NCBI GenBank assembly: GCA_029260035.1
Contig: JAJDEA010000088.1
Span: 1-60,586, forward strand
DNA length: 60,586 nt
DNA from: Phycisphaerae bacterium
GTDB lineage: Bacteria; Planctomycetota; Phycisphaerae; UBA1845
Reading direction: 5' to 3'
Shown here one piece after another: positions 14,617 through 46,891 of this stretch. The notes under the pieces are model-generated. The model ran no database searches. It had not been told where the DNA came from and saw only the letters and a program-made list of their open reading frames with translations. The position numbers and the translations under genes were made by a program. The stretch's first letter is position 1; each line of letters begins with the position of its first letter.

Positions 14617-14870
14617 AATCAAGCCCATTGCCTCGCCATTCGCAATTCTGTTTGAGATGATCGCTCGAACGATTTTTATCTCCTGTCCACACGTCACGTT
14701 GTTGTCTCGCTGGAACCAGTTTTGCTCTGCTGAACCGCTATTCACGCGATCGCCAAATCTGGAATCGGCGTAGAGGAAGACAGAATGGGCAGGAGCTGGC
14801 GAGAAACTTGGATGCGAACCGATCGTGGCGTTCCTGCGTAACCCCTGTCATAACGAATCAAGGAAAGCGA

Positions 14871-16199: not shown

Positions 16200-16228
16200 T
16201 GCAGTGGCCTTGAAAGGAGACGCTTCGA

Positions 16229-17503: not shown

Positions 17504-17594
17504 TCGCCGAGAGCCACCACGCGAACAATCACTGCAGACGTTCTCTTGTGTAATCCACTCGGCACAAACGATTCTTGACAATGGATGAAAACTC

Positions 17595-18572
17595 ATGACA
17601 CGACGAAAGCAAAACGAGAAGTACGAAGATCGTGAGGTTAGCGCGTTTCGCTCGACCGATTTGACCGGCGAGGGAGTTCCGGCGCGTGTCCTTCTGGCAC
17701 CTTGGGGAGATGTCGAAAGCAGCAACGGCAGTTTTGTTGTAGACGATGAGTCAGCACGGCTCGCCCTCGACGCATTCGACGATCATGCCACCGATTTGCC
17801 AATCGACTACGAACACCAGACGCTTGGTGGCACCTACGCGGCACCGAGCGGAAAGGCTCCTGCGGCGGGCTGGGTCAAGAGAATGTTTGCCGAAACCGGT
17901 ATTGGGCTGTTGGCGGAAATTGAATGGACGGAGCAGGCTGAAGAACTGCTGGCCTCGAAGGAATATCGATATCTGTCACCCGTCGCCATTATCCGCAAGT
18001 CTGACCGAAAACTCGTAGCGATCCACTCGGCAGCTCTCACCAACAAGCCGGCAATCGTTGGAATGCAGCCGATTGTCAATCGCGAACAAAGTCATCATAT
18101 TGCCGTACAAATGGCACCGTTGCAGGAACTGCGCAAGGAATTGTGTCTTTCGGAGAACACTGACGCGGAGGAGGTTCTCGCCGCTGCAGGCAGACGGCTG
18201 ACGGAGCTTCGAGAGGATTCGAAGATGCGACGAGTCCAGGCTCGTGTCGAGGAAGCGGCGTGTGCTGGCAAGTTGGTCGAGGCACAGCGAGCCTGGGCTG
18301 AAGCGCTCGTAGCCCAAGAGGAAGAGCTGTTCGACGAATGGTTGCGGACGGCACCAGTCGTGGTCGTTCCGGGTGCGACGAGGCCCCCGGGCGGAGCTGG
18401 TTTAACCCAAGGCCGGGAACAGTCCGCTACAAACCGCGCCCGGGCGGAGTTTCGCTCCAACCCGCTGCTCGCCAGGCTCACAACAGAAAGCGCTTTCGTT
18501 AGCGACGCTTTGCGATCCCACGCTTTGCGGTCTACCACTACCAGCCGTAAAGCAGGAAACCACCAGAACTAA
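17595..18572 (+). CDS. Mu I-like head maturation protease/scaffold
   Basis: A 325-residue protein like Mu gpI. The protease part (FVVDDESARLALDAFDDHAT, PIDYEHQT near residue 70, AAGWVKRM, SKEYRYLSPVA and AALTNKPAIVGM) covers residues ~40-155. The C-terminal half is helical and charged, as in the scaffold that is cleaved during prohead maturation. The order portal-protease-decoration-major capsid matches Mu-type head operons. The 91-base gap before it lacks a strong Shine-Dalgarno sequence. Intact. Confidence 0.85.
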   Translation: MTRRKQNEKYEDREVSAFRSTDLTGEGVPARVLLAPWGDVESSNGSFVVDDESARLALDAFDDHATDLPIDYEHQTLGGTYAAPSGKAPAAGWVKRMFAETGIGLLAEIEWTEQAEELLASKEYRYLSPVAIIRKSDRKLVAIHSAALTNKPAIVGMQPIVNREQSHHIAVQMAPLQELRKELCLSENTDAEEVLAAAGRRLTELREDSKMRRVQARVEEAACAGKLVEAQRAWAEALVAQEEELFDEWLRTAPVVVVPGATRPPGGAGLTQGREQSATNRARAEFRSNPLLARLTTESAFVSDALRSHALRSTTTSRKAGNHQN

Positions 18573-18623
18573 TCAACCAGGCTCTTTTTCACAAGTCCAA
18601 TCAACTATAGAGGATGACAGAAC

Positions 18624-19388
18624 ATGGCACTAAGCACAAACAAAGATGTGGACCATTACATCGATCAGGAGCTGCGAACATTTCAAGTAGAGGGTACCGC
18701 TCATATTTACAAGGGCTCCCTTGTGGGCCTTGCTTCCACGGGTTATGCGCAGCCTCTGGCTGCAGGAGATCCGTTTGTTGGAATTGCATACGAAGAAATC
18801 GACAATACAAGTGGCGCAAACGGAGCCTTGACTGTCCGCGTTTACACACTCGGTGATTTCGGTCTCTCGCTGAGTGGGGCAGCTATCACGGACATCGGCC
18901 GGCCGGTCTTTGCCTCGGCCGACGATACTCTAACCTTTACCGGTGCGGGAAACTCGTACGTTGGAATTGTGCAGGATTTCGTCAAGGCAAGTGAAATCAT
19001 CTTGCGGATCGATCCAGGCCATAAGTTTATCAAGACGGTCATCCACACCGTCGAAGACCTGAGCGCCGGTGCGGACATCGCAGCACGTGCAGTCCACGGC
19101 TTTGATGCGGATGGATGGATCGTTTGCGCTCGGGCTACAAATCAGGCGACTGCGGCGGCGGGCATCGATAACAGCAACACATGTGTCATAACACTGGCAA
19201 CCGGAGCCGGCACGGTCGTTACCGAGACCTTCGACGCCACGACAACGTTTCCCGGTGCAAATTCCTCTGTCGATCTGGGCAGTGTAAGCAATGTGCATGT
19301 AGGTTCCGGCGATGTGATGACAGTAGCCGTAACCAATGGGGCCACGGCTGACCCCGGCCCGTTCCTGATCTGTGTTGATTACGTTTAG
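18624..19388 (+). CDS. Capsid decoration protein (DUF2190-like)
   Basis: The first ~135 residues match the DUF2190 pattern: an N-terminal stretch through VEGTAHIYKGSLVGL, then GYAQPLAAGDPFVGIAYEE and VRVYTLGDFGLSLSGAA. These small beta proteins stud the capsid surface. Residues 140-254 form an extra beta-rich domain ending with VGSGDVMTVAVTNGATADPG, perhaps a surface display domain (inference). The TAG stop (19386-19388) is the first three bases of repeat A copy 3. Confidence 0.75.
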   Translation: MALSTNKDVDHYIDQELRTFQVEGTAHIYKGSLVGLASTGYAQPLAAGDPFVGIAYEEIDNTSGANGALTVRVYTLGDFGLSLSGAAITDIGRPVFASADDTLTFTGAGNSYVGIVQDFVKASEIILRIDPGHKFIKTVIHTVEDLSAGADIAARAVHGFDADGWIVCARATNQATAAAGIDNSNTCVITLATGAGTVVTETFDATTTFPGANSSVDLGSVSNVHVGSGDVMTVAVTNGATADPGPFLICVDYV

Positions 19389-19482
19389 AGCAAGCTCTAT
19401 TTTTCTGTAGCGGTCGAGAGCATTCTTCTTCTCATGGATATTCGCAATTCGCCGCGACATATGATCGGTTCGTGGCTATAGC
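19386..19482 (+). repeat. Dispersed intergenic repeat A, copy 3 (inside capsid cassette)
   Basis: It begins TAGAGCAAGCTCTATTTTTC and ends GTTCGTGGCTATAGC, with the same spacing as copies 1 and 4. Its first three bases are the stop codon of the decoration gene. The palindrome followed by a T run could also act as a weak terminator. Confidence 0.75.
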
Positions 19483-19554
19483 GTCGCAACATTTTTTCAA
19501 GTCGGCGACACATCGCCGAGTCTTTTGTCTGTTCACTAAATAGGAGAGCCAGCC

Positions 19555-20478
19555 GTGGCGATTATCAATACCGGATTGCTTACCAAGGGACTGCGTAGCG
19601 AATTCTTCAATCGTTTCGATGCTACAACGACCTATTTTCAGGATCTGAGCACGCGGATCGAATCCAGCTCGGACACCGAGACCTACAAGTGGCTCGGTTC
19701 AGCACCGCGAATGCGGGAATGGGGTACCGGCCGAATTGCGCAGGGTATCGGCACTGAGTCGTATTCGGTCGAAAACCTCAAGTACGAGGCGACTTTGGAA
19801 GTCGATCGAGACGAGATCGCCGACGATAAGACGGGGCAGATTCGCATTCGTGTCGCAGAACTGGCATCTCGTGCGGCGTCTCACAAGGACTATCTGCTCG
19901 CGCAGCTTCTTATCAACGGCGACCAGGCAGGCTTTACCAGCTACGATGGTGCCGTTTTTTTCAGTAGCAATCATGTGTCCGGTTCGTCCGGCTCGCAGGA
20001 CAACCTCTTGACCAGCCCCGCGATTGACCCGAACGACCCCACAACGGAAGAATTCAAGATTGCTCTTAAGGCGGCGCTTTCGGCTATGCTGGGCTTCAAG
20101 GATGATCGCGGCGATCCGTTATCGATTGGCGCAACGGGACTTGTTTGCGTAGTGCCGACTTCATTGCACATGACGGCTCTGGAGGCAGTGAACGCGACGG
20201 TAATCAGCAATACGTCCAACATTCTCGAAGGCGTCGCGCAGGTTGTTCCATGCCCATGGCTTACCGCCACAGATGAATGGTACCTATTGAAAACCGACGG
20301 CGTCATTCGACCCTTTATGTTTCAGGATCGCGAGCCGGTGGAGTTCACAGCACTGACCGAAGAAAGTGATGAAGGATTCCGACGTGAAAAGTTCCTTTAC
20401 GGCGTACGCGCGCGATACCGCATGGCGTATGCGTATTGGCAGTTCGCCGTAAGCACCACATTCACTACGCCTTCGTAG
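19555..20478 (+). CDS. Major capsid protein (Mu gpT-like)
   Basis: A 307-residue protein from GTG 19555. The opening IINTGLLTKGLRSEFFNRFD, then RMREWGTGRIAQGIGTESYS, YEATLEVDRDEIADDKTGQ and the end MAYAYWQFAVSTT are characteristic of the Mu gpT major head family (HK97 fold). Its length is normal. GAGAGCC lies just upstream. This is the most diagnostic gene of the cassette and is intact, which argues for retained function or recent arrival. The TAG stop starts another TAGAGC sequence. Confidence 0.92.
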   Translation: MAIINTGLLTKGLRSEFFNRFDATTTYFQDLSTRIESSSDTETYKWLGSAPRMREWGTGRIAQGIGTESYSVENLKYEATLEVDRDEIADDKTGQIRIRVAELASRAASHKDYLLAQLLINGDQAGFTSYDGAVFFSSNHVSGSSGSQDNLLTSPAIDPNDPTTEEFKIALKAALSAMLGFKDDRGDPLSIGATGLVCVVPTSLHMTALEAVNATVISNTSNILEGVAQVVPCPWLTATDEWYLLKTDGVIRPFMFQDREPVEFTALTEESDEGFRREKFLYGVRARYRMAYAYWQFAVSTTFTTPS

Positions 20479-20639
20479 AGCGTGCTGTCAACGCTTGGGG
20501 TTGGTGGTGAAAGCGAACTCTGCTTTGTGAGACAGTCTCAATTTGGTATTTCCCGAGAGATCGTCTCGAAACAGCGTTACACAACTAGACATGAGCTTAA
20601 TCATCCGCGGTTCAAACTTCGGCACAAGGAGTCACATGG
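20479..20639 (+). repeat. Capsid-cassette spacer with degenerate repeat
   Basis: This 160-base gap holds AACTCTGCTTTGTGAGACAG and, further on, AGATCGTCTCGAAACAGCG. Both blocks align in order with the gap at 23788-23895 and partly with 21660-21755. They look like a diverged repeat A subtype. AAGGAG lies just before the next ATG. Confidence 0.5.
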
Positions 20640-21080
20640 ATGGCATACATAACGAACACCGCAATCCAGGAACGTCTCGGCAATTCGACCTATGTCCAGC
20701 TTGCCGATGACGATGGGGATGGACTGGCCGATGTTGAGGTTGTGGATGAAGTGCGCCTTGGGGCGGAAGGCGAAGTGAACAGCTACCTGGGCCAACGATT
20801 CGCTGTCCCGATCGACCTGGTGAAGTTTCCAGAACTTGCTGGCGTTCTCAAGACAATCTCGCTCGATCTGGCAGAGCATCGCCTGCGCGTGCGCCGACCA
20901 CCAATCCCAGCTTCGGCGATTCGGCAGCGCGACCAGGCGATTGACTGGCTCGCCAGGATTGCGGCAGGAACGCTTGCCCTGCCGGCGACAGGGGTTCCCT
21001 TGAGTAGCGACCGAAGTCCGATCGCGGATTCGGTGGGCGATGCCCGCATTCTGTCACGAGATGAACTTTCGGATTTCTGA
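20640..21080 (+). CDS. Head-tail connector (DUF1320, Mu gp36-like)
   Basis: A 146-residue protein starting MAYITNTAIQERLG with an acidic loop (DDDGDGLADVEV), then VRLGAEGEVNSYLGQRFAVP and LDLAEHRLRVRRPP. This is the DUF1320 pattern, a connector docking below the portal. Length is standard. It follows the major capsid gene, as in Mu-like phages. A connector implies that a tail or plug once joined, or still joins, the head. Confidence 0.82.
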   Translation: MAYITNTAIQERLGNSTYVQLADDDGDGLADVEVVDEVRLGAEGEVNSYLGQRFAVPIDLVKFPELAGVLKTISLDLAEHRLRVRRPPIPASAIRQRDQAIDWLARIAAGTLALPATGVPLSSDRSPIADSVGDARILSRDELSDF

Positions 21081-21173
21081 AGCAAGAGATGTCATCTGCA
21101 CCGTCCGCTGAATCAGACAATGGGCGCTGGGTTTAATCACCCGTTTATAACGCTTTGATGGAGGTTTACTCGA

Positions 21174-21659
21174 ATGGCTGCCACGCCGGATCGAACGACG
21201 ATACGAACAACGGTTGACTCCCTCGTGACAAACCTTCGAGCTAATCTGGTGGCTGAGCCACCGACGGCAACTAAGCCTTTTCGGATCATGGCGGTAGGCG
21301 ATGTCAAGTTCGACGAGCACACTCGGCCATTCCTGACGCTTTCGGTCGAACGAATTCGGCCAATCGGCACAACGCAGAACGACAAGATCCTGGAAGTACG
21401 GGCGACGTTTCGTATGGCGGCTGATATATCGGCTTCGGATCCGCACACGACGATCCTCGATAAGATTGGCGCACTGGAGGATCACTTCGATACGTTGATC
21501 GACATTGGTGTCGTCGAGGGGAGCGATGGGTTCGATGATCGGGAATGGCTTATCGATTATCCAAAATTTGCGTCCGGCATGCGTGTCGTTTCGGCGACAG
21601 CAACACAGTCATTCGTCGTTCGCGCGGAGCGTCTGCAGAATCGTATACCGGCGTCTTAG
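21174..21659 (+). CDS. Probable neck/tail-completion protein
   Basis: A 161-residue protein placed where Mu-like phages encode gp37-type tail-terminator proteins. It has an N-terminal helix (RTTVDSLVTNLRANLV), then beta strands with RPFLTLSVERIRPIG and a central IGALEDHFDTLIDIGVVEG, a pattern seen in tail-terminator proteins. I cannot name the family with certainty. GGAGG precedes the start. Role inferred from position. Confidence 0.6.
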   Translation: MAATPDRTTIRTTVDSLVTNLRANLVAEPPTATKPFRIMAVGDVKFDEHTRPFLTLSVERIRPIGTTQNDKILEVRATFRMAADISASDPHTTILDKIGALEDHFDTLIDIGVVEGSDGFDDREWLIDYPKFASGMRVVSATATQSFVVRAERLQNRIPAS

Positions 21660-21755
21660 CGCAGGGTTTTTCTGTGCTGCCTTTATGGCGGTTCTTCTCG
21701 CAAGTTGCCTCGAAGCAGCGATACACAAGACACGAGAATGCTATAGGAAACCAAG
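21660..21755 (+). repeat. Capsid-cassette spacer with degenerate repeat
   Basis: It contains GGGTTTTTCTGTGCTGCC and then CTCGAAGCAGCGATACAC, blocks related to those at 20479-20639 and 23788-23895, and ends with AATGCTATAGG, recalling the GCTATAGC right end of repeat A. Confidence 0.45.
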
Positions 21756-22202
21756 ATGAATTGGATTCTCGCAACACGAGGTGCGACTACAAAACTGCGG
21801 ATTTCCCCTTTTACTGAAACCGAAATCGAAGGGGTCCACAGCGTAGTTTACAAGCCTGGCATCGAACCGATTCCTTTCTCTGGTAACGACGTAGCGACCG
21901 GGCCTTTGGGTACGTTTGGCCGAGGCGTTCACCGAATTTCGGGCTTCGTTTTCTCTTACGATGGGTCGGCGGCCGAGACGCTTTTTTCCGTCACACAGTC
22001 GATTGATCTCGTCATTCGATACCGCGCGAGCGGCGAAAAGCGCAAGCGGACATTGTCGGATGCGGCTTTTCTTGGAGACGCTGTCGTGACTGTTCCATCG
22101 CTGAACACGGGAGTATCCGAACTCATTGGTGTTCCGTTTCGGATTCAGATTCCGGACACGGATTCACTTGGAAATCACGTTACAGACATAGTGGAGCCGT
22201 AA
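21756..22202 (+). CDS. Phage structural protein, unknown
   Basis: A 148-residue beta-rich protein. It lies three bases ahead of the next gene and directly after the neck candidate. SVTQSIDLVIRYRASGEKRK and TVPSLNTGVSELIGVPFRIQ suggest a small sandwich or tube-like subunit. A minimal tail-tube role would fit the position, but no family was recognised and there is no tape-measure gene to go with it. Confidence 0.6.
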   Translation: MNWILATRGATTKLRISPFTETEIEGVHSVVYKPGIEPIPFSGNDVATGPLGTFGRGVHRISGFVFSYDGSAAETLFSVTQSIDLVIRYRASGEKRKRTLSDAAFLGDAVVTVPSLNTGVSELIGVPFRIQIPDTDSLGNHVTDIVEP

Positions 22203-22205
22203 TAC

Positions 22206-22652
22206 ATGGCCGTGAACACGTCCCAATTGATCGACGCGGCGCAGGTCGGATTTGCCGCACAGCAAAATGAACTGTCAGAGATTCGCGCTCGCCAACCAAT
22301 GTCCGTAACAAGCAAGACGTCTACCGGCACAGCAAACATAAACGTTGCGTTTAATCTGGATCGCGTTTTTCGGTTGGTGTACGTTCGTTGTCACTTTTCT
22401 GGATCTCCGGGCGTAGACCAGCTGACATTATCGTTGGATTCGGCCAACGGCGCAACCTACGACACTGACCTTTATTCGATAACAAGCGCTGGCACCGGCA
22501 GTGATGTCAACTTTCGCATTTCAGCACAGGAAAGCGCAGAGCCATCTGCCTGGACGTTTCAATCCGGCGATGCACTAAGGGTCCAATGGACGAACCCGGA
22601 CAGCGGCAACATTACCTGGGGACTTGAAGTTGGACTCGCAATTGCTTCTTAA
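22206..22652 (+). CDS. Phage structural protein, unknown
   Basis: A 148-residue protein with a short helical N-terminus followed by a jelly-roll-like beta domain (VFRLVYVRCHFSGSPGVDQL, then DALRVQWTNPDSGNITWGLE). Such domains occur in virion surface or fibre proteins that bind receptors or carbohydrates. Translationally coupled to the upstream gene (gap of three bases). No family was recognised. Confidence 0.6.
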   Translation: MAVNTSQLIDAAQVGFAAQQNELSEIRARQPMSVTSKTSTGTANINVAFNLDRVFRLVYVRCHFSGSPGVDQLTLSLDSANGATYDTDLYSITSAGTGSDVNFRISAQESAEPSAWTFQSGDALRVQWTNPDSGNITWGLEVGLAIAS

Positions 22653-22755
22653 GGCCTAACTCTATTTTCTGTTGCGGTCGCATCTTTGTTAGTGCGGCTT
22701 GAATAGCTCATAGCGGCTTTGCGAATGAAACGCGAGCTACATAAGGACAAACCCA
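22653..22755 (+). repeat. Capsid-cassette spacer with degenerate repeat A
   Basis: The segment AACTCTATTTTCTGTTGCGG closely follows the left end of repeat A (CTCTATTTTTCTGTAGCGG at copy 3). The right end is lost apart from CTCATAGCGG. Confidence 0.5.
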
Positions 22756-23787
22756 ATGCCTCTCACCGATCGATCCGACAGCCTGGACACGCGGAACCTG
22801 ACCGTTCATGACTTGCTCGAACTGGCGGCGGACACGCCGATCGAGTTCAAGGAGATGGCTGCACCGGCAACACCAGCCACCGGATCAGTCGTAGTCTACG
22901 CAAAGACTGACGGAAAACTCTATGCCAAAGACGACGTCGGTACGGAGTCCAATCTGACAGCTGGCGGCGCCGGCGAGGCCAATACTGCGAGCAATGTTGG
23001 CACAGGCGGCGTCGGTGTCATCGAAAGTAAGGTAGGCGACGATCTTCAATTTCGTAGCGTAAACGCTGGCTCCGCGAAAATTGCCGTATCACTCGACGCA
23101 GCGAACAAGGAAGTAGACATTGATCTCGGTGTCGTTGCTTCCACAGACTTGTCAGACAGCGGAAGCCTATACCGTTCTTCAGGAACAGACGTCGCCATTG
23201 CAGATGGCGGCACAGGCTCCAGTTCAGCGTCCGGCGCTCGAACTAACCTGGGTCTTGGCATTGGCACGGACGTCCAGGCCCATGACACTGATCTTGATGC
23301 AATCGCCGCGGTCAACACAAACGGATTGGTCGCCCGAACCGGGGCTGGTACTGCAGCTTCGCGCACCGTGCTCGCCGGCACGGGGATCAGCGTTACCAAT
23401 GGCGACGGCTCAGCCGGCGATCCCTCGATAAACCTGGCAACGAAGTCGCGGACAGTAACCAAAATCGTATACATTGAGTTTCCGACCGCTTCCGATTCTC
23501 TACCCGTTGCCTTTCTCGCTGATGACGTCACCTTCGTGCAGGTGCGCGGCGTAACCGACACCGGCACCGTAGACTTCAACATCGAAAGGCGGGCCACGAA
23601 TACACCTGACGCAACTGGAACTGATATCCTGTCCGCTGATCTGCAAGCTACGTCTGCTGGCGCTTCGACCAGCTCATTTGCAACAAGTGGGGCGGTCGCT
23701 GGCGAACAATGGCTGCACTACAGTTCTAGTGCCGTATCCGGGACACCCACCAAGCTATGGGTGGCACTGGAATTCACAATCGACTAA
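22756..23787 (+). CDS. Phage fibre-like structural protein
   Basis: A 343-residue, Gly/Ala/Thr/Asp-rich protein. The middle (VAIADGGTGSSSASGARTNL, then GTDVQAHDTDLDAIAAV and LAGTGISVTNGDGSAGDPSI) is the repeat style of tail-fibre and tail-spike shafts. The N-terminus (RNLTVHDLLELAADTP) may be the anchoring part, and the last ~110 residues a globular tip. It could be a head fibre as readily as a tail fibre, given the missing tail genes. Confidence 0.7.
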   Translation: MPLTDRSDSLDTRNLTVHDLLELAADTPIEFKEMAAPATPATGSVVVYAKTDGKLYAKDDVGTESNLTAGGAGEANTASNVGTGGVGVIESKVGDDLQFRSVNAGSAKIAVSLDAANKEVDIDLGVVASTDLSDSGSLYRSSGTDVAIADGGTGSSSASGARTNLGLGIGTDVQAHDTDLDAIAAVNTNGLVARTGAGTAASRTVLAGTGISVTNGDGSAGDPSINLATKSRTVTKIVYIEFPTASDSLPVAFLADDVTFVQVRGVTDTGTVDFNIERRATNTPDATGTDILSADLQATSAGASTSSFATSGAVAGEQWLHYSSSAVSGTPTKLWVALEFTID

Positions 23788-26275: not shown

Positions 26276-29200
26276 ATGTACCAGGAACATTTCGGTCTTC
26301 GCTGCATGCCGTTTGACGATCGTGCGGACATCCGATTCAACTTTGCAACGCCCGAGCAGGAAGAAACACTCGCTGCGTTCGAATACGAAGTTCATTATGG
26401 CAAAGGCATGACAGCCCTTGTCGGAGAATCGGGTGTTGGAAAAACACTGCTCATCCGTACGCTCGTATCCAAGCTTCACGCAACGGACCACGTCGTTGTC
26501 GTCACGCAACCATCGAATGGACAGGCAGAAATACTGCGCGCGGTGTGTAAGGGATTTGGTATCACATTACCGAACCACTACAGTTCCGTCCGCGCCCTGG
26601 CTCGATTGCGTCGCAGGTTCGTCAACACCGCGAAGGCAAGTCATCGGTCCATTCTTCTCGTCGACCAGGCGGAAAATCTCTGCGCAGAAAACCTTACTCA
26701 GATCGCAACGCTCGCCGAGCTGAATTCGGATCAGGATAACTTGATCTCGATCGCACTTGTTGGACAGCCGCAATTCAAGACGGTCATCGAAGCACCGAAG
26801 TTTGATCGCCTTCGCCAGGAATTGTTTCGAGAGCAACATCTGTCGCCCCTTGTCGCCGACCAAACGGGCGATTACATCGAACACAGGCTTCGCATAGCTG
26901 GGATCGGCGATACGAAACTATTCACTGATGAAGCGATCGCAGCGGTTCACGAAGCCTCAGATGGAATACCCAGGCTCATCAACCGAATTGCGGATGCAGC
27001 GATGTTGGCCGCATATGGAGCGGAGCAGGGCACCATAACCGAAGAGCTGGTCCGGGAAGTGACCACACGAGTAGTTGATCAGAAGACTGCCAACGTGCGA
27101 GACGTCAGGCTGATTGCTACAGGGCACAGCAACGGCACAAAGGACAAGGCGGTTGCGCCACAATCAAGGCGTAGTGAATTTGCCAGTGCGGGCGCCATCG
27201 GTTCTTCAGTCGAAGCCAATGTTCGTAGTCAACTTGAATCAGGGTCAGAATCACTGAACGACGAAAACCACAACACCGAATATCCGACCCAGGATGATCC
27301 CACCCATAAGACTATAGGAAAGCTCGTTTCGCGTATCGAGGAATTGGAGCACCAACTTGCAATAGGTGATGGGCGCTCCGGCAGCACGTCCGTCCTACCC
27401 AATGCTGTACAATCCTCAGAACAGAAGGGTCAGGATTTGATACGGCAAATGGAGGCTCTCATCGAATCACTCCATCAATCGGTGGAACATGCGGGCAACA
27501 CAGTAGAATCGATCGAATCGAGGATGGCACAGACCATAGCAGATTCGGAGAACCGTTTCGTTGCAATGGAATCGCGAGCCGCGAGTGCATCGGATTCTGC
27601 AAGGATAACGGCAGACAAAGTTGAGCGAATAAGCAGGGCCTGCGAAGAGGCAGATCGCGTCGAAGCCAAGCTCGTGACATTTACAGAAGACTTGGCCGAC
27701 AAGGCGGATCAAGTTCAGGAACAAATGGGTCATTTGGTAGCCGGTCTCGACGGGGCAAAAGATATTCAACGTGATTTGAGCGTAGCTTCCGCGAACGCGT
27801 CGTCCCAAAAACACGATCTCGAATCGGCGATCAAAGCGGGTGAACAGCGAATTGAACAATCCGCATCGGCGACGGAAAAGCTCATGTCCGACCTCGCGGC
27901 CACCGCCATCAAACAACTGCATGAAGAGCTTCTACAAAAAACACGAGTGCAGGAGTGCGAACAGAATGCCAGTTTAATCGCGATGGAAGAGAGTGCTCGT
28001 GATCGGCTTCAGAAGATTGGGTCGGAATTTCAGGCAAACATCGCGTCGATTCGCGGGGAGAGCCTAAACCAAGCCGATCAAATGGCCCAGGAACATGCAA
28101 ACCGCATTTCGAAAGAACTCGATGCGGAAGTGTCACGTTTGAGCTCAACGGCCCATGAAGCTACCGACCGAATTCAGGAACTGCTGGGGCAGGCAAAGTC
28201 AACGCAGTCAGCAGTAGAAAGTGCTCGTGATGACGTCGAGCGAAGACTGAATGACCAAAATGAAACAGTGCAAAAGCGTCAAAAGGATTTTGAGCGACAA
28301 CTCTTGCAGGAATCGAAACGCATTGTTGCGGAACAAATGAACTCGTACACCGAGGCGCTGGAAATCGATTTGGCTAAGGGAATCGAAGATGTTAGAACGC
28401 TAAAGAACGAAACAACATCACTTGTTGAAAAGGCGCGTCATGCCACGGCTGATGCAATAACAGATGAACGTTGTGAGTTAGACACCCTGAAGAAAGAGAT
28501 GATCGCCGGACGAAATCAACTCGAAAGCACTGCAGCGCATAGCCGAAAAACGGTGCAAGAGGCTGTGGAACATGTATCGCAACAAAGTGAATTACTAACA
28601 CAAACTCTGGATAAAGCCAAAACCCAATGCAACACCCTCAAGCCAGAGGTGGAAACACTTGACATTTCGCTTGGTAACACGAGCAGCCGGATACAAAAGC
28701 TCAAGGAAGATGTAAACTACTCCGCACGAACGGTAGGCGAATTGGAACCGCGATGTGAAAAACTTCAAGACACATTGAACTCAACGGATCGGCAGGCCGA
28801 GGAAACCATCGCAAAAGCCCAGGCCAGTGTCGGCCAGCTGGAAGCAGTTCAACGTGGCACAGCCACCACTATTCTCGAAATAGGCAAAGCAAGCCAACAA
28901 CTTACCGACACCCAGCAGCGCATGCAGCTTTGTGAACAATTGTGCGCCAGACTAGCTACGCTTCAAGAACAAAGCGAAGAAACCGTTGGCTCGCTTACCA
29001 AGGTTGTTCGTGACGCCAAACAGTCTCACGAAACATTACATCGCGGCACGGCGATCGCTGACGACAAGGTTTCCAAGCTCGGATCACACTTGGCTTCCGG
29101 GCAGAACGTATTGCGCGACCTAACAAACGCCAATGCATCGGCACAGAAAAGCGTTGAGCAAATGAAGCAGACCTTTGAAAATGCATCCGCAACCCAGGAA

Positions 29201-30511
29201 CAAATTGAGGTGCTTGTCAAAGATGTCTGGTCGTTGACGGCCAAAACTGAAGTCAATGCAAACAAGCTCGAATCGGCGTCAGCCAAAGCAGACGAGGTCA
29301 TCGCAAATGTCAATCTGTGCACAGGGTCTGCTGACGATTTCGCAAAGGGGCTGAACGACCGAATAGACACTGCCAAGAAAGAAATCGGTGGAATGGCAGA
29401 AAAGTGCGAGCAGGGTCGAAAAGTTGCTGAGAAACTCGGTACGATCACACAGGTGTTGGCTGCTGCCAAGAAAACCGGAGACGATATCGAAAAAACGCTT
29501 GAAGAAGCTCGCAAAGTGCAGGAGTTCGTCACGAATTCCGCCAGCGAAACGGACATACGATGTGCGCATTTGGAAAACGTCAACGCAACGGCACAGGGCA
29601 TGATCGAAACGCAGCAACAGCTCAAACACGAAGTGGATATGGCTGCGGTTCAACTCGAATCACATATCGCCGCGGTGAACGGAACAGTCACATCCCAGGA
29701 AGACCTGCAGCGCGAATTGGTTGAACAAGCCAAGGGGCTGGCGAGCAGATTGGAAGCCATGGCTGGGCAAACCGCAACCATCGAACAAAAAGTTGGCGAT
29801 TTGATTACCAAGCCAAAAGAGATGATCGCTGAGGCTCGCGAGCAGGCAGAACAACTCGAACGGGTGTGCCAGGCGGTGCGCAAAGTTTTTGCCGGGCTGT
29901 CCAAGGCAAGTTTAGAAGCTCGCCAGCACACGGAAAACATAGATAAAAAAACGTCCTCGTCGACTACACAAATTGCAGAATTGAGTCGGGTATCGGCTTC
30001 GAAAATTGCCGAGATGACTGCCGAATCCGAACGAGCCGTTGCATTGCTTCACGAGTCGATGGACGAAAAGACGGCCGCATCAAATGCGCAGATTGCAGAG
30101 ATGACGGCTGCCTCAACTTCAGAGCTCGCAGAATTGAGTAAGACGTCTGTTTCGCAGATTGCTGAGATGACCGCCGAATCCGAGCGAGCTGTCGCAACGC
30201 TTCACGAGTGGGTGCAGGAAGCGGTACACGCGCAGTCCAGGCTCGAACGAACATTGCAGCAGACGCCCGCAATTCAGCAAACACATCCAACCCTTACCCA
30301 ATCGCCACCGACAAGTGCTTCCGACTTTATTCGCGTTGCCAATAAGAAGACATTTGAGAAGACAGCTACGCAGTCTGGCACGATTCCTAAGACGATGCCT
30401 AGAAAAAAAGTCGAAGCCAGCCCATCCGCTCGCGCGGAACGGCCAGAGTCAAGAGGTGATGAGATCGCGAAAATCATCAACGAGACAAAGCGAAAAAAGG
30501 CGAAAGCCTAG
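26276..30511 (+). CDS. ExeA-type AAA ATPase fused to a giant coiled coil
   Basis: A 1411-residue protein. Residues 1-270 are an ExeA/MshM-like AAA ATPase: MYQEHFGLRCMPFDD, Walker A GESGVGKTLL (near 51), Walker B ILLVDQAEN (near 127), and DGIPRLINRIADAAMLAAYG. Residues ~280-350 are a linker. From ~350 to ~1320 the sequence is almost continuous heptad coiled coil rich in Ala, Glu, Gln and Lys. Near 1240-1320 a short block repeats (QIAEMTAESERAV twice). The tail is basic. ExeA ATPases usually have a periplasmic peptidoglycan-binding domain; here there is no membrane segment, so a cytoplasmic, filament- or SMC-like role is inferred. Confidence 0.85.
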   Translation: MYQEHFGLRCMPFDDRADIRFNFATPEQEETLAAFEYEVHYGKGMTALVGESGVGKTLLIRTLVSKLHATDHVVVVTQPSNGQAEILRAVCKGFGITLPNHYSSVRALARLRRRFVNTAKASHRSILLVDQAENLCAENLTQIATLAELNSDQDNLISIALVGQPQFKTVIEAPKFDRLRQELFREQHLSPLVADQTGDYIEHRLRIAGIGDTKLFTDEAIAAVHEASDGIPRLINRIADAAMLAAYGAEQGTITEELVREVTTRVVDQKTANVRDVRLIATGHSNGTKDKAVAPQSRRSEFASAGAIGSSVEANVRSQLESGSESLNDENHNTEYPTQDDPTHKTIGKLVSRIEELEHQLAIGDGRSGSTSVLPNAVQSSEQKGQDLIRQMEALIESLHQSVEHAGNTVESIESRMAQTIADSENRFVAMESRAASASDSARITADKVERISRACEEADRVEAKLVTFTEDLADKADQVQEQMGHLVAGLDGAKDIQRDLSVASANASSQKHDLESAIKAGEQRIEQSASATEKLMSDLAATAIKQLHEELLQKTRVQECEQNASLIAMEESARDRLQKIGSEFQANIASIRGESLNQADQMAQEHANRISKELDAEVSRLSSTAHEATDRIQELLGQAKSTQSAVESARDDVERRLNDQNETVQKRQKDFERQLLQESKRIVAEQMNSYTEALEIDLAKGIEDVRTLKNETTSLVEKARHATADAITDERCELDTLKKEMIAGRNQLESTAAHSRKTVQEAVEHVSQQSELLTQTLDKAKTQCNTLKPEVETLDISLGNTSSRIQKLKEDVNYSARTVGELEPRCEKLQDTLNSTDRQAEETIAKAQASVGQLEAVQRGTATTILEIGKASQQLTDTQQRMQLCEQLCARLATLQEQSEETVGSLTKVVRDAKQSHETLHRGTAIADDKVSKLGSHLASGQNVLRDLTNANASAQKSVEQMKQTFENASATQEQIEVLVKDVWSLTAKTEVNANKLESASAKADEVIANVNLCTGSADDFAKGLNDRIDTAKKEIGGMAEKCEQGRKVAEKLGTITQVLAAAKKTGDDIEKTLEEARKVQEFVTNSASETDIRCAHLENVNATAQGMIETQQQLKHEVDMAAVQLESHIAAVNGTVTSQEDLQRELVEQAKGLASRLEAMAGQTATIEQKVGDLITKPKEMIAEAREQAEQLERVCQAVRKVFAGLSKASLEARQHTENIDKKTSSSTTQIAELSRVSASKIAEMTAESERAVALLHESMDEKTAASNAQIAEMTAASTSELAELSKTSVSQIAEMTAESERAVATLHEWVQEAVHAQSRLERTLQQTPAIQQTHPTLTQSPPTSASDFIRVANKKTFEKTATQSGTIPKTMPRKKVEASPSARAERPESRGDEIAKIINETKRKKAKA

Positions 30512-37854: not shown

Positions 37855-40425
<2,571 letters not shown>

Positions 40426-40884: not shown

Positions 40885-41991
40885 CTAGGCTGACGCAAGA
40901 GAAACCGGCATAACAACATATAAGAAGTCCTGCCCCAGCCGAATCAAACCCGGCCTGTTAGCCTCCTTGAAGGCCATAGACAAATCATCCGCGTGCGTTA
41001 CACGAAGAACATCCAACAGAAAAACCGGGTTAAACCCTATTTCCACCGGCTCGCCTTTGTATTTCACAGGAATCGAAACCGTCGCCTCACCTTGCTCCGG
41101 CGCCCGGCTGGAAAGTGTCAAGCTGTCGTCTGTGATAGCAAATCGAACACCTTTCGACTCCTCGTTCGTAAGCAACGAGGCACGGCGCAAAGCACCCAAC
41201 AAATCGGCCGTCTTCACCTCGACGATCCGATCACAATCCTGCGGAATAACATCCTGGTATTTCGGGAAATGCCCTTCTACGAGCGACGAGCTTATCATCG
41301 CTCCCCCAATGCTCATCAGCAATTGATTGGACGTAATTTTCACGCCAACATTTCCAGCAGCGCTCCCCGGCAAGCGAGACAAAAGACTCATCGCTTTGCC
41401 CGGAACAATTGCGCTCGGAACCTTCGCTTTGCTGGCTTGCGCGAGCTTGGCTTTGGCCAACGATAGCCGACGCCCATCCGTAGCCACGAGCGTCAACTGG
41501 TCCCCTTCAACCTCCCACAATACGCCATTCATTGCATAGCGCGTACTTTCACGCGCCGATGCGAACACCGTCCATTCCACCAAACGAAAAAGCGCATCCC
41601 GCTCAACCGCAAAATCCGGGCCGTCTTCCATCGTGGGGACCAGGGGAAACTCATCGGCATCCTGCGTCACAACCTGGAAGTGGCTTCCCGCCCCGCGGAT
41701 ATGTAGTTGGCTGCTGTCCGTTTCGATGTTGAGGATTTCGTCATCGCACTCGTTAACAATTTTAGACAGCGTGTCGGCGACGACCAACGTGTCGCCCGGC
41801 TCATCCACTTCGACCTGCGTCACTGCACACCGCACTGAAAGCTCTGTGTCGGTTCCTGAAAGCAGAAGGACGTCGGATTGCACTTCCAGCCTAACACATC
41901 GCAAGATTGGCTTAGGCGTTCGCGCAGCAGCTACGGCGCAAACCGCCTTGAGTGCATCGCTCATCTCTTCGCGGTTAAATCGAAATTTCAT
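40885..41991 (-). CDS. dnaN: DNA polymerase III beta sliding clamp
   Basis: A 368-residue clamp subunit; two subunits would form the ring that holds the polymerase on DNA. It begins MKFRFNREEMSDALKAVCAV. The pattern PKPILRCVRLEVQSDVLLLS, then ATDGRRLSLAKAKL in the second domain and the C-terminal end FLYVVMPVSLASA fit the three-domain clamp. Length is typical. It lies between dnaA (361 bases upstream) and dciA. Intact. Confidence 0.95.
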   Translation of the reverse strand: MKFRFNREEMSDALKAVCAVAAARTPKPILRCVRLEVQSDVLLLSGTDTELSVRCAVTQVEVDEPGDTLVVADTLSKIVNECDDEILNIETDSSQLHIRGAGSHFQVVTQDADEFPLVPTMEDGPDFAVERDALFRLVEWTVFASARESTRYAMNGVLWEVEGDQLTLVATDGRRLSLAKAKLAQASKAKVPSAIVPGKAMSLLSRLPGSAAGNVGVKITSNQLLMSIGGAMISSSLVEGHFPKYQDVIPQDCDRIVEVKTADLLGALRRASLLTNEESKGVRFAITDDSLTLSSRAPEQGEATVSIPVKYKGEPVEIGFNPVFLLDVLRVTHADDLSMAFKEANRPGLIRLGQDFLYVVMPVSLASA

Positions 41992-42352
41992 GGGATGAAC
42001 ATCCTTCCGCTACTGAATAACAAACAAGGTCTATTTTGTTGGTCCTATTCTCTTATTATTAATTAAATATAGTAGCAGGAATCGGTCCCGTGAAAAGCGT
42101 GCATTCTCGTTTGCGTCAAACGCATAAACTCTTACCAGCGAATAGGCTGAGGCCCAAAAGCCAGACCAAAAAGCCGTGACAAACCTGTTCGTTCGCGCCG
42201 TGCAATTCGCTTGGTGTACGGGCGTTGAGCCGTGAAGCAAAAACGGCCCTGGTGTTTCCCGACAATCGGTAACAGCGTTTCGCACAGCATTGTAACCAAG
42301 CACCTCTCGTCTTCCCGTGGCCAAATCTAGCGGCGGCAGCGCCGAACGACTG
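41992..42352. other. dnaA-dnaN spacer
   Basis: A 361-base gap with one AT-rich stretch (42045-42075). I looked here for both oriC and the missing DnaA domain IV. There are no TTATCCACA-like boxes, and none of the three minus frames shows the domain IV helix-turn-helix signature. The CAAGGTCTATTTTGTTGG segment near 42024 weakly recalls repeat A. Confidence 0.5.
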
Positions 42353-43336
42353 TTAGCGCGCGGGGTTTTGGTTCTCTTTTTGACTTTGGCCTTCCCATTC
42401 GACCAGCGATTCTTCCATGTCTCGAATGGTCGCCGACTCCGTCGAGGCCAATTGCTCTAAAATGGCCGCCGGGGCTTCAATACAGCGGAACTTTGCTTTC
42501 TTTTGCAGAATGGCCAGTCTCGTTTCGAAAATAGGCTGGTCAAGCAGCGCCACCAAGCCGGAGTTGAAACGAGTAATCAACCTGTCAGCGATGCCAGACA
42601 GTTCTGACGGCGAGAAGTCCGCAGAAAAAACGAGCTGCTTCCCTGCCTGGTGAAGCGAATTATAAATGCGGAAGAACTCTTCCTGTGTCCGTTCTCGGCT
42701 GTCCAAAAACTGCACGTCATCAACAATGAGCGCATCGAGCGAATGAAAGACCGCGTGAAACTGATCGACCGTCGCGTCTTCGACAGCTTCGACGAAACGA
42801 TTCACAAACATTTCGCAGGAAACATATGCGGCGTTCAGGCTTCTGTCCGCCTCCGACATCTCTTGAGCAACAGCTTGGAGCAGGTGGGTTTTCCCCATCC
42901 CGGTTCGGCCATGAATGAAAAGCGGGTTGTACGATTTTCCGGGGCCGCTCGCGACGGACACCGATGCTGCGTGGGCCAGACGATTGCTCGGCCCGACCAC
43001 GAATTGATCAAAGGTGAAAGCTGGCACCACCGCCTGGCGAAGATTATCCAGCATGGAGGCGGACGGCGGAGCAGACCCCTCATCCTCCGCAGGTGAGGTA
43101 AACCGTACGGTTACCAACTTGCCGGTGCAGTCTTGGGCCGCTGCGGTGAAACTCGGAAGGCATGTTTGGGACAGATACCGCCATTGGGCACCGTTTTTCG
43201 GCTGAATCTCAATGGTCCCGTGGTTCATTTCCGCCGCAGCTAACTCAGCGAACCAGCTTCGGACGAGGTCTGGACTGTCCAGACGGACCCGGCTGATGAT
43301 ATCTTCCAGCAATGATTCCGAGACACGTTGCGCCAT
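42353..43336 (-). CDS. dnaA: Replication initiator DnaA lacking DNA-binding domain IV
   Basis: A 327-residue protein. An N-terminal domain I-like region (residues 1-75), a short linker and a complete AAA+ module are present: FTFDQFVVGPSNRLAHAASV, Walker A GRTGMGKTHL (near 145), Walker B LIVDDVQFL (near 200), and ADRLITRFNSGLVALL (sensor/Arg region). It stops after EQLASTESATIRDMEESLVEW, where normal DnaA (about 450 residues) continues into domain IV, which recognises DnaA boxes. No frameshifted remainder is visible downstream. Position next to dnaN makes it the true dnaA ortholog, not an Hda. How it would find the origin is unclear. Confidence 0.85.
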   Translation of the reverse strand: MAQRVSESLLEDIISRVRLDSPDLVRSWFAELAAAEMNHGTIEIQPKNGAQWRYLSQTCLPSFTAAAQDCTGKLVTVRFTSPAEDEGSAPPSASMLDNLRQAVVPAFTFDQFVVGPSNRLAHAASVSVASGPGKSYNPLFIHGRTGMGKTHLLQAVAQEMSEADRSLNAAYVSCEMFVNRFVEAVEDATVDQFHAVFHSLDALIVDDVQFLDSRERTQEEFFRIYNSLHQAGKQLVFSADFSPSELSGIADRLITRFNSGLVALLDQPIFETRLAILQKKAKFRCIEAPAAILEQLASTESATIRDMEESLVEWEGQSQKENQNPAR

Positions 43337-43665
43337 ATTGCCTGCGTGATTTTATCGATTCGCTAGAGCAAACTCTTTTCAACAGTAGTGTGTGGGATGA
43401 TGTTTCTTCCCGTGAATGTTTGGGACTCGACGCCGCACTTGATCGGTCGCGAGGATGAAAGCGGGAGGCCCAAAATCCAGCGGTTATTGTACCACCAGGG
43501 GCGAACAACAACAATGTTCCTGTTGTGCATTACGGGCTTTGCCGAGCGGATTCACAGGGTCCAGCGACGAGGCATGAATTGTCGATATCTTCGGTGATTG
43601 CGGCACGCTGGGCGCTGAAATAAGATAAACCCAATTGCAACGCAAAGTGAAACGGAGCGCCAAGG
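43337..43665. other. Divergent dnaA/top6B spacer
   Basis: A 329-base divergent promoter region. It contains a degenerate repeat A copy (43364-43454) within 30-120 bases of the dnaA start. No DnaA-box cluster was seen. Promoters must lie here, but no convincing consensus pair stands out. Confidence 0.5.
43364..43454 (+). repeat. Dispersed intergenic repeat A, degenerate copy 5
   Basis: The left end TAGAGCAAACTCTTTTCAAC and the right end CGCCGCACTTGATCGGTCGC correspond to the ends of copies 1, 3 and 4 at nearly the same distance. It lies in the dnaA leader. Confidence 0.55.
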
Positions 43666-45651
43666 ATGGCTACCATTCCCACAACCCAAAAAGCACCCCC
43701 TCCACGAGATCAGCTTGATTTTGCGTTCTCCGATTGCCGAGAGGGGATAAATGCAGCGAGGACAACGACGGTGCCCCAAACTAAGGCCGATATGACCGCA
43801 AAACGCACGATGCCTAAGCCGGTGGTTCCCCCCAAGTCCGCGGGGAAGAAAAACGGGCGCACCGCGACGGCAGAGTCGATGGCCAAGCAGCAGCGCGAAA
43901 TCTCCGTCTCTGAGTTTTTTGCCAAAAACCGACATTTGCTCGGTTTCGACAACAAACGTAAAGCACTCTTGACCACAGTCAAAGAGGCTGTAGACAACAG
44001 CTTGGACGCCTGTGAAGAAGCAGGGATTCTGCCGGATATCGATATCAGACTGAAACAGGTCGACACGGATCGATTCGCCGTCACCGTTCGCGACAACGGG
44101 CCCGGAATCGTCAAGCAACAGATTCCAAATGTATTCGGCAAGTTGCTATATGGTTCCAAGTTTCATCGGCTGAAAATGTCGAGAGGCCAACAAGGCATCG
44201 GCATCAGTGCTGCTGGTATGTATGGCTTGATAACGACCGGCAAGCCAATACGCATCGTCAGCCGAACCAGCAGCCGATCACAAGCTCATCTCTACAAGCT
44301 TGCGATTGACACCAAGAAGAACAAGCCTGACATCGTGGCCGACGAAACAGTGGATGTTGATTGGGCTCATGGAACGGAAGTCACGATCGAGTTGGAAGCG
44401 TCGTATAACAAGGGAAGGCAGAGCGTTGACGAGTACATCGAACTTACCGCGATAGCGAACCCTCACGCCAGCTTTACGCTTCATCCGCCGATCGGGCCAA
44501 CCCTTGACTTGCCGCGTGGGACGGAAACGCTGCCGGATGAGACCAAGGAGATCAAGCCGCATCCTTACGGCATCGAGCTTGGCACGATGATGAAGATGCT
44601 GAAAGAAACAAAGTCCCCAAAGCTGGGAGCGTTTCTGACAAATGAGTTTTCGCGTGTCAGTAGCGCTGTGGCGAAGAAAGTAGCCACACAGTCCGGTGCC
44701 ACAGCTTCGACATGGGTGTCGTCACTCGAGCCGCCAACGATTGAAAAAGTCTACAGCTCATTGCAAAAAACGAAACTCATGGCGCCCTCGACGAACTGCC
44801 TCGCCCCGATGGGCGCAGAGGCGATCCTTACGGGCCTCTTGAAGGGGATTAAGGCGGAATTCTACACAGCCAGCACGCGCCCACCGAATGTCTATCGCGG
44901 CAACCCGTTCCAAATCGAAGTGGGACTCGCCTATGGCGGAGAACTCGGTGCGGACAAGCATGACGATGATGATACGGGTAAAAATGGCCAGGATCGCGCG
45001 CAATCGCGGGTTATTCGGTTCGCCAACCGAGTGCCGTTGCTCTATCAGCAAAGTTCGTGCTGTACGTTCAAAGCGGTTCTGGACACGAAATGGAATAATT
45101 ACAATTTGTCGCAAGCTTCGGGTGCGATGCCTCGGGCACCGATGGTGATTTTAATACACATGGCCAGCGTTTGGGTGCCGTTCATATCAGAAGGCAAGGA
45201 GGCCATCGCGGACTACGATGAGATTCGCAAGGAAGTGAAGCTCGGTATCAGTGAATGCGGCCGAAGATTGAATATGTTGCTTCGGCGAAAGAAGCGCAAA
45301 GCGCATTTCGCGAAGCGCCGTGATGTGTTCACCAAGTACATTGACGAAGTGGTGAACTCGGCGCGCGCGATAACCACAATCAACAAAGAAGACTTCCGCA
45401 AGTCGCTGGTGTCATTGTCAAGAAAATACACCGCCCAGGCAGATATGGAATTTGACGACCATGGTAAGGTGGTCAAGAAGGAAATTGTAGGTAACGACAT
45501 GGGGCTGGCAGATACAATCATCGTGGATCACGAGGCCCCCGCGCCTTCACCTGAGACGCTTTTCGGTGATACAGGCAAAGAAAAATCAAAAAGCGGATCG
45601 GCTCGAAAGTCGAAAAAACGGAAGAAGTCGGCTAAGCGAAAGAGTCGTTGA
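43666..45651 (+). CDS. top6B: DNA topoisomerase VI subunit B
   Basis: The ATPase subunit of a type IIB topoisomerase, 661 residues. After a ~75-residue basic, low-complexity leader the family core begins SVSEFFAKNRHLLGFDNKRK. GHKL motifs: EAVDNSLDACEE (near 107), VRDNGPGI (near 143) and GQQGIGISAAGMYG (near 174), followed by the H2TH and transducer regions. The C-terminal tail is Lys/Ser/Arg-rich. Topo VI relaxes and decatenates DNA as an A2B2 complex; it is general in archaea and plants but rare in bacteria. The subunit A gene follows 67 bases later. Confidence 0.95.
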   Translation: MATIPTTQKAPPPRDQLDFAFSDCREGINAARTTTVPQTKADMTAKRTMPKPVVPPKSAGKKNGRTATAESMAKQQREISVSEFFAKNRHLLGFDNKRKALLTTVKEAVDNSLDACEEAGILPDIDIRLKQVDTDRFAVTVRDNGPGIVKQQIPNVFGKLLYGSKFHRLKMSRGQQGIGISAAGMYGLITTGKPIRIVSRTSSRSQAHLYKLAIDTKKNKPDIVADETVDVDWAHGTEVTIELEASYNKGRQSVDEYIELTAIANPHASFTLHPPIGPTLDLPRGTETLPDETKEIKPHPYGIELGTMMKMLKETKSPKLGAFLTNEFSRVSSAVAKKVATQSGATASTWVSSLEPPTIEKVYSSLQKTKLMAPSTNCLAPMGAEAILTGLLKGIKAEFYTASTRPPNVYRGNPFQIEVGLAYGGELGADKHDDDDTGKNGQDRAQSRVIRFANRVPLLYQQSSCCTFKAVLDTKWNNYNLSQASGAMPRAPMVILIHMASVWVPFISEGKEAIADYDEIRKEVKLGISECGRRLNMLLRRKKRKAHFAKRRDVFTKYIDEVVNSARAITTINKEDFRKSLVSLSRKYTAQADMEFDDHGKVVKKEIVGNDMGLADTIIVDHEAPAPSPETLFGDTGKEKSKSGSARKSKKRKKSAKRKSR

Positions 45652-45718
45652 CCGCTCGATGCAACGGTTCCGCTTGCGGTAAGGCATAGGGAATCGTCTC
45701 AAAGGAGGAGTTAAGAAT

Positions 45719-46891
45719 ATGGCCAAAAAGAAGTTGGCCAGCGGGGCAACCAAGAAAACAGCCAAGCCGCGCGCGTCCAAAAAACGGGCTTCCAGACTTA
45801 AGGGCAAAGACACTAAAGAGCGCATTGCAGAATTGGCTAGATCTGTCGTAGCTATGGCAGAACGCGAGCAGGACCCCGCTATCCAAATCCCTGTGCGATC
45901 GCTCAGTAACATTGCGTACAACGAAAAGTCTCGACATCTCGAGATGGGTGACAACGAGCAGTCGCGAAGTTTCTTTAACTTCGGTCAGGCAAAACGTTTC
46001 ATGCAGACATTGCTTGTCGCATCCAAATGCAATGATCTTATCGACATAGGGAAGACCGCGAGCATTCGTCAGATTTATTACCTGAGCAAGCACACGATCA
46101 AAGGGACCAAGGAGAAGACCTTTGACGATCAGAGCGAATCGGATCCGATTATCGAAGACCTGGAGGTGGCGGTTGATTCATTGCGCGAACAACTTCACGT
46201 CTTCGCCAGCAATCGGGGCAACCTGGCTGGCCCAATTACGTTGGTCGATGACGGCAACACGCTCGATTGTGCCGCGATGGGTAGCGCGGGGTATGCTGTT
46301 CCCAGTATTGTCGAAGCCGATGTGATTCAGTTTAAGAAATGTAAAGCCAAGTTCATCCTCCACGTCGAAAAAGACACCGTTTGGCGGCGCTTTCACGAAG
46401 ACCGCTTTTGGCAGGAGCACAACTGCATCGTCTCGCATGGCGGCGGTCAACCGGCGCGGGGCATGAGAAGACTTCTCCGCCGGATGCACGAAGAGCTTAA
46501 GCTGCCGGTGTTCGTCCTGCTCGATAATGATCCGTGGGGGTATTACATCTACTCGGTCATCAAGCATGGCTCGATCAACCTGGCGTATGAGTCGAGGCGC
46601 ATGGCTGTGCCGGAGGCGAAGTTCATCGGCGTATCGAGCTTTGATTATGACCGTTGTGACATGAACGACGACGTGAAGATCGAACTGGACGCAAACGATA
46701 TCAAGCGCGCAAAGCAAATCGCCAATTACCCTTGGTTCAAGAACAAAAGGCCTTGGCAAAAGGAAATCAAGAAGATGATTTCCAATGGCTTCAAGATGGA
46801 AGTCGAAGCCATGATTAGCAAAAATCTCTCCTACCTCACTGAAGAGTACGTCCCCATGGCACTCAAGAACAAAAAGCTTTGGCTGGATTAA
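45719..46891 (+). CDS. top6A: DNA topoisomerase VI subunit A (Spo11-like)
   Basis: The DNA-cleaving subunit, 390 residues, with a strong ribosome site (AAAGGAGGAG). After a basic N-terminal tail, the catalytic 5Y-CAP domain has SIRQIYYLSKH with the candidate nucleophile Tyr120 or Tyr121. The Toprim domain follows: ITLVDDGNTLDC is near 177, and VFVLLDNDPWGYYIYS, the DxDPxG metal site, is near 265. The ending LSYLTEEYVPMALKNKKLW is typical. Both subunits are intact, so a working bacterial Topo VI is likely in addition to gyrase. Confidence 0.95.
   Translation: MAKKKLASGATKKTAKPRASKKRASRLKGKDTKERIAELARSVVAMAEREQDPAIQIPVRSLSNIAYNEKSRHLEMGDNEQSRSFFNFGQAKRFMQTLLVASKCNDLIDIGKTASIRQIYYLSKHTIKGTKEKTFDDQSESDPIIEDLEVAVDSLREQLHVFASNRGNLAGPITLVDDGNTLDCAAMGSAGYAVPSIVEADVIQFKKCKAKFILHVEKDTVWRRFHEDRFWQEHNCIVSHGGGQPARGMRRLLRRMHEELKLPVFVLLDNDPWGYYIYSVIKHGSINLAYESRRMAVPEAKFIGVSSFDYDRCDMNDDVKIELDANDIKRAKQIANYPWFKNKRPWQKEIKKMISNGFKMEVEAMISKNLSYLTEEYVPMALKNKKLWLD

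Follow-up and report, generated by a model that had tools for sequence, protein, structure and literature searches.

The dnaA gene at the dnaN locus of the Phycisphaerae bacterium investigated here encodes a DnaA protein that has lost the DNA-binding domain IV, and this loss is confirmed as real. Judged from comparison with related genomes, the truncation is a lineage-specific loss within a pattern that recurs in the family, and the dnaN-linked DnaA is probably a paralogue that was released from box recognition, while the origin would be read by a second DnaA. The analysed window of 60,586 nucleotides corresponds to the complete contig C258; the assembly comprises 4.93 Mb in 271 contigs, with 94.6% completeness and 1.5% contamination. 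Between 37.8 and 46.9 kb it carries gyrB (37855–40422), a short open reading frame, dnaN encoding the sliding clamp (40885–41991) and dnaA on the minus strand, followed on the plus strand by the genes for topoisomerase VI subunit B (43666–45651) and subunit A (45719–46891). A divergent spacer at 43337–43665 separates dnaA from the topoisomerase VI B gene. The cumulative GC skew is lowest at position 42862, inside dnaA; counted in one-kb blocks, the skew is positive in 17 of 17 blocks from 43 to 60 kb and negative in 15 of 21 blocks from 22 to 43 kb. This turn marks an origin at the dnaA locus, and GC skew and dnaN-gyrB synteny together place the gene at the origin position. DnaA boxes with at most one mismatch are absent here; however, 17 of 29 relatives likewise have none in the spacer and the 600 nt upstream, and the idea that missing boxes indicate a changed initiation was discarded as uninformative.

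The topoisomerase VI B and A genes (43666–46891) are divergent from dnaA, and topoisomerase VI B was found near dnaA in 29 of the 43 stretches from relatives. Among the 80 topoisomerase VI B loci kept from GTDB, seven have a strong dnaA match nearby, six of them with domain IV and one cut by a contig end; the loci L116, L117, L118, L119, L120, and L130 look like the genome records G317, G318, G337, G321, G322, and G330, respectively, and are not independent data. Elsewhere the window contains a Mu-like prophage head module (14808–23787) with a terminase large subunit, Portal_Mu (E = 1.6e-91), a head maturation protease, a structural protein, a major head protein and a tail-fibre-like protein. 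It also encodes a protein of 1411 aa with an N-terminal AAA_22 ATPase (26276–30511), and the AT skew at this gene is very strong (0.25–0.34 over 27–30 kb).

The truncated dnaA gene (42353–43336, minus strand) codes for 327 aa, in which an N-terminus resembling domain I is followed by an AAA+ module. Bac_DnaA (PF00308) matches residues 106–262 with an E value of 5.1e-59, and the protein covers positions 17–314 of the 437 positions of the DnaA profile TIGR00362; about 120 C-terminal positions are missing, and the score of 273.2 bits lies below the equivalog cut-off of 343.9. All four ATPase motifs that were checked are present, as read from motifs and alignment: Walker A (GRTGMGKT, residues 143–150, 42887–42910), the Walker B aspartates D206 and D207 (42716–42721), the arginine finger position R256 (42569–42571), whose role was assigned by alignment, and the sensor 2 arginine R305 (42422–42424), all on the minus strand. 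The N-terminus can be aligned with that of the relatives and is folded in an AlphaFold2 model based on 7 sequences (mean pLDDT 78). The model ends with a helix at residues 304–322, and alignment and model agree that the residues following this helix in the relatives are absent. The preliminary description had let the gene end just after the AAA+ module; the truncation is indeed there, but the end lies slightly before, as the last lid helix of the relatives is lost too. According to passages in PMC5742627, domain IV contains a helix-turn-helix and binds DnaA boxes, and according to PMC5835720 sequence-specific binding of duplex DNA in E. coli is carried by this domain alone. The predicted protein lacks exactly this domain of an initiator, and it is most likely that it binds and hydrolyses ATP without binding DnaA boxes itself. 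The GC contents at the three codon positions (0.61/0.43/0.62) resemble those of dnaN (0.61/0.42/0.60), and the gene still looks coding.

The protein shares with DnaA (TIGR00362; PF00308 plus PF08299) the synteny with dnaN and gyrB, an N-terminus of the domain I type and the ATPase motifs of the AAA+ module, and differs by the missing domain IV and last lid helix. With Hda (TIGR03420) it has in common a DnaA-kind AAA+ module without a box-binding domain. However, it scores only 95.1 bits against the Hda cut-off of 194.8, keeps its N-terminal domain and descends from a dnaN-linked dnaA, and a simple pattern for an Hda-type clamp-binding motif gave no match in the 327 aa. The best fold match of the model is domain III of DnaA from B. 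subtilis with 41% identity, and in this fold search DnaA structures rank above Hda. By its profile scores (273 versus 95 bits) the protein is assigned to DnaA by descent and not to Hda. PADLOC returned just one weak AAA match of 22.7 bits.

It had been claimed from the sequence alone that domain IV is missing and that no remnant of it is left in the 361-nt spacer between dnaA and dnaN (41992–42352), and both statements were borne out. No PF08299 match above the cut-off is present in the whole assembly (best hit E = 2.2, 10.9 bits), and a family-specific domain IV profile (A3; 16 rows drawn from both paralogues of the family) found nothing in the assembly at E ≤ 10, while it matched in three of three control relatives. 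The three frames of the spacer contain no remnant, and the best tblastn pieces there correspond to the end of the AAA+ module or are short fragments with E > 0.04. A frameshift whose correction would restore domain IV, which the preliminary description had named as a possible refutation, is thereby rejected, as the spacer is devoid of domain IV in every frame. Comparison of dnaA lengths across relatives, likewise suggested there, yielded DnaA proteins of 435–516 aa, all with GRDH, in the 29 syntenic relatives first fetched, in which the dnaA-dnaN spacer measures 251–467 nt (median 292). Since the spacer of 361 nt lies within this ordinary range, only the C-terminal region is gone. The genome was also searched for a second full-length DnaA and for a free domain IV, and neither is present in the assembly: there is one Bac_DnaA match at E = 2.5e-59, the next one has an E value of 7e-6 (contig C160), and a free-standing domain IV protein was rejected because neither the Pfam cut-off nor the family profile (E ≤ 10) yielded one.

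Within the family, 45 dnaN-linked dnaA genes were found, of which 44 with an uncut 3' end were counted; G337 was left out, as its apparent truncation (324 aa) coincides with a contig end in the gene. The signature GGRDH[ST]TV is kept in 38 of the 44 proteins. In four others (G306, G320, G321, and G322) the domain IV region is present and the signature is destroyed, and two lack domain IV altogether, namely the genome studied here (G000) and G336, whose dnaA is closely followed by dnaN and separated from both contig ends by over 4 kb. Full-length genes at this locus in relatives, which had been proposed as evidence against the truncation, are therefore the rule, yet G336 is truncated as well, and because most relatives are full-length at the dnaN locus the truncation is lineage-specific. 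In a tree of DnaN and topoisomerase VI B, G000 stands beside the genus g225 (G316–G318), which has intact dnaN-linked copies; the support of 100 belongs to the whole clade of G000, g225, and G315. G306 groups with G336 (support 98) and G320 with G321 and G322 (support 75). Since the losers fall in separate places of this tree, the dnaN-linked copy has lost box reading at least three times independently, although the six losers do not represent six independent events. The other five losers lack the sensor 2 arginine, which G000 keeps. No other member of the genus of this organism is among the 51 family genomes, so that a single assembly documents the truncation for this lineage, and a search for closer relatives among GTDB contigs with the DnaA of the window gave none.

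Besides the dnaN-linked copy, a second dnaA gene is present in 46 of 50 relatives; the assemblies without it are G294, G298, G309, and G328. G294 is a single-contig genome of 3.8 Mb, estimated as 67% complete, with neither a Bac_DnaA nor a PF08299 match. Among the first 16 regions examined, the second dnaA lies behind a GNAT gene in 15, and the remaining region is cut by a contig end. All 46 second DnaA proteins contain the signature G[NKR]K[ND]H[ST]TV[IL]L, typically as GNKNHSTV, and the five other losers (G306, G320–G322, and G336) all hold a second DnaA with domain IV. In 11 genomes with both copies, the mean identity of domain IV is 90% for the second DnaA versus 64% for the dnaN-linked one, while the AAA+ module is no more conserved in the second copy (73% versus 79%). 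The recognition helix of the second DnaA (loci L065–L080 and L211–L245) is altered and extremely conserved, with GNKNHSTV instead of GRDHTTV. Because of this altered helix, the second DnaA may read a different box. For the missing domain IV the preliminary description had offered two solutions, recognition of the DNA by a different protein or a second dnaA at some other site, of which the latter is favoured by its occurrence in the relatives, although it is absent from this assembly; its presence in the organism is what we infer from them.

The loss of box reading goes along with a shift in the evolutionary rate of the AAA+ module. On the fixed topology of the DnaN and topoisomerase VI B tree, the ratio of the mean AAA+ to the mean DnaN distance is 1.67–2.42 in the six losers, which are the six highest values of all 44, compared to a median of 0.71 in the 38 intact genes. 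The highest ratios among the intact genes belong to G302 (1.57), G305 (1.53), and G304 (1.14), which keep GRDH, so that the rate shift is no perfect marker. In these three genomes (L207, L208, and L210), with GRDH kept and a fast AAA+ module, no topoisomerase VI B gene is present in the 10-kb stretches fetched; perhaps the same release has only begun in them. In a free tree of 30 sequences, the terminal branch of G000 has a length of 1.57 for AAA+ versus 0.21 for DnaN, and 14 of the 92 family-invariant positions are changed in G000 versus 0–4 in the nine relatives listed. The best explanation is that the AAA+ module evolved several times faster after the release from box recognition. As the ATPase motifs are kept in spite of this fast evolution and the codon-position GC is like that of dnaN, the protein has remained under a certain, though changed, constraint.

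The fast evolution and the changed invariant positions would also fit a pseudogene on its way out, which no longer has a function while the second DnaA does all the work, and the copies in G306 and G336, in which decay has gone further, point in the same direction. Under neutral decay, however, an open frame of 327 codons, a normal codon-position GC and intact ATPase motifs are unexpected, and these traits persist after an AAA+ branch of 1.2–1.6 substitutions per site. A pseudogene is therefore a doubtful reading that keeps some plausibility; it is a variant of the release from box recognition, and the two are set apart solely by what the copy does today.

Whether the second dnaA is missing from the organism or only from its assembly can be judged from the neighbouring genes. 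The GNAT gene is present in 29 of the 30 high-quality family genomes, the sole exception being this one, and mnmA and mutS1 give strong matches in seven of seven relatives tested and are absent from this assembly. In G316, G318, and G296, of which the first two belong to the sister genus, mutS, mnmA, dnaA2 (the second dnaA), and GNAT share one contig within approximately 15, 7, and 10 kb, respectively, whereas in G315, G307, and G311 mutS-mnmA and dnaA2 are located on different contigs. Among the other high-quality relatives, 28 of 29 have dnaA2; the exception is G328, which lacks it in its assembly because the contig has its first base inside the GNAT gene. Since mutS, mnmA, GNAT, and dnaA2 are absent together and are neighbours in the sister genus, one gap is the simplest reading, and the mutS-mnmA-dnaA2-GNAT block was probably lost in one assembly gap. 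The contig C28 of this genome carries c8, cyclophilins, FKBP, MFS, and pgi, which in G316 are found on the far side of GNAT. In the region upstream of c8, however, C28 contains 3.5 kb of unrelated genes and then ends, without reaching GNAT-dnaA2, so that a gap placed where the synteny of G316 predicts it was rejected; C28 does not end there. The arrangement in G318 is also unlike that of G316 around this region, and therefore C28 is compatible with a gap as well as with a deletion.

A real deletion of the block, which would leave no box-reading DnaA, is possible. The organism would then have lost mutS, mnmA, dnaA2, and GNAT at once as well as domain IV of the remaining copy, and either another protein would recognise the origin for an AAA+-only DnaA or DnaA would be unused. 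PF08299 is found nowhere in an assembly that is 94.6% complete, a deletion in one step would look like the arrangement on C28, where the block is not found at its G316 position, and all four ATPase motifs are kept here while the other five losers lost the sensor 2 arginine. Against this, four genes are absent jointly, of which three give strong matches in all relatives tested, and this is the pattern expected from one gap; about 5% of the genome is estimated to be missing, and dnaA2 is nearly universal in the high-quality relatives, its one exception being the cut contig of G328. In addition, the GC skew turns sharply at the locus, whereas, according to passages in PMC7198777, DnaA-independent cyanobacteria tend to an irregular skew. 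An organism without any box-reading DnaA is thus unlikely, and its more specific form, in which dnaA2 is deleted and the AAA+-only DnaA still drives the unwinding of a fixed origin recognised by another protein, is quite unlikely as well. Most probably, paralogy with the second gene in an assembly gap applies rather than initiation without a box-reading DnaA. A normal domain IV hidden by a faulty assembly or by a frameshift at the 3' end, conceivable insofar as a single assembly represents this lineage, is highly improbable, because an independent relative (G336) shows a like architecture away from contig ends, the spacer has a normal length and no domain IV in any frame, and the AAA+ rate shift cannot come from such an error.

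For the dnaN-linked DnaA as a paralogue released from box recognition, the following course can be assumed. The family carries two DnaA paralogues, the dnaN-linked one with GGRDH[ST]TV and the second one behind GNAT with GNKNHSTV and the more conserved domain IV, and because of the second DnaA the loss of box reading in the first one would be tolerated. The dnaN-linked copy was freed in three or more lineages, either by removal of domain IV (G000 and G336) or by destruction of the signature (G306 and G320–G322), and the AAA+ module of the freed copy then evolved at its higher rate. The second DnaA, presumably hidden in the assembly gap together with mutS, mnmA, and GNAT, would read the origin; its presence as well as this division of labour are what the relatives suggest. 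The truncated copy would now be an ATPase-only accessory or a decaying copy. If it is used, it may act via head-to-tail contacts of its AAA+ module or via domain-I contacts with the second DnaA, and it could thereby join or limit the filament of the second DnaA, which would be Hda-like in effect, or contact other initiation proteins.

More than one DnaA per genome is also described for Chlamydiae, a phylum of the same superphylum, with DnaA1 and DnaA3; however, the passages of PMC4989314 on these paralogues do not describe a loss of domain IV. The DnaA-independent cyanobacteria, as portrayed in parts of PMC7198777, are similarly free-living, and several times among them dnaA was lost or could be dispensed with. 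There, the dispensable or lost dnaA comes with an irregular GC skew, whereas here dnaA is truncated, the skew turns at the locus and the relatives have a second dnaA. The literature searches made for this analysis turned up no description of a DnaA truncated at the dnaN locus in this group.

That domain IV recognises the boxes counts as the fixed core of bacterial initiation. In this family, the gene at the classical origin position has lost box reading on three or more occasions, and strong conservation is seen instead in a second DnaA, whose recognition helix is unusual. If it were true that the second dnaA is absent from the organism, the AAA+-only protein would be the initiator, which would be surprising. 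The finding is also a warning that neither the initiator nor the origin of a genome should be named by dnaN synteny alone. Moreover, the freed copies would be natural separation-of-function variants, with an ATPase but without box binding, and they may offer a way to ask which of the two DnaA proteins starts replication.
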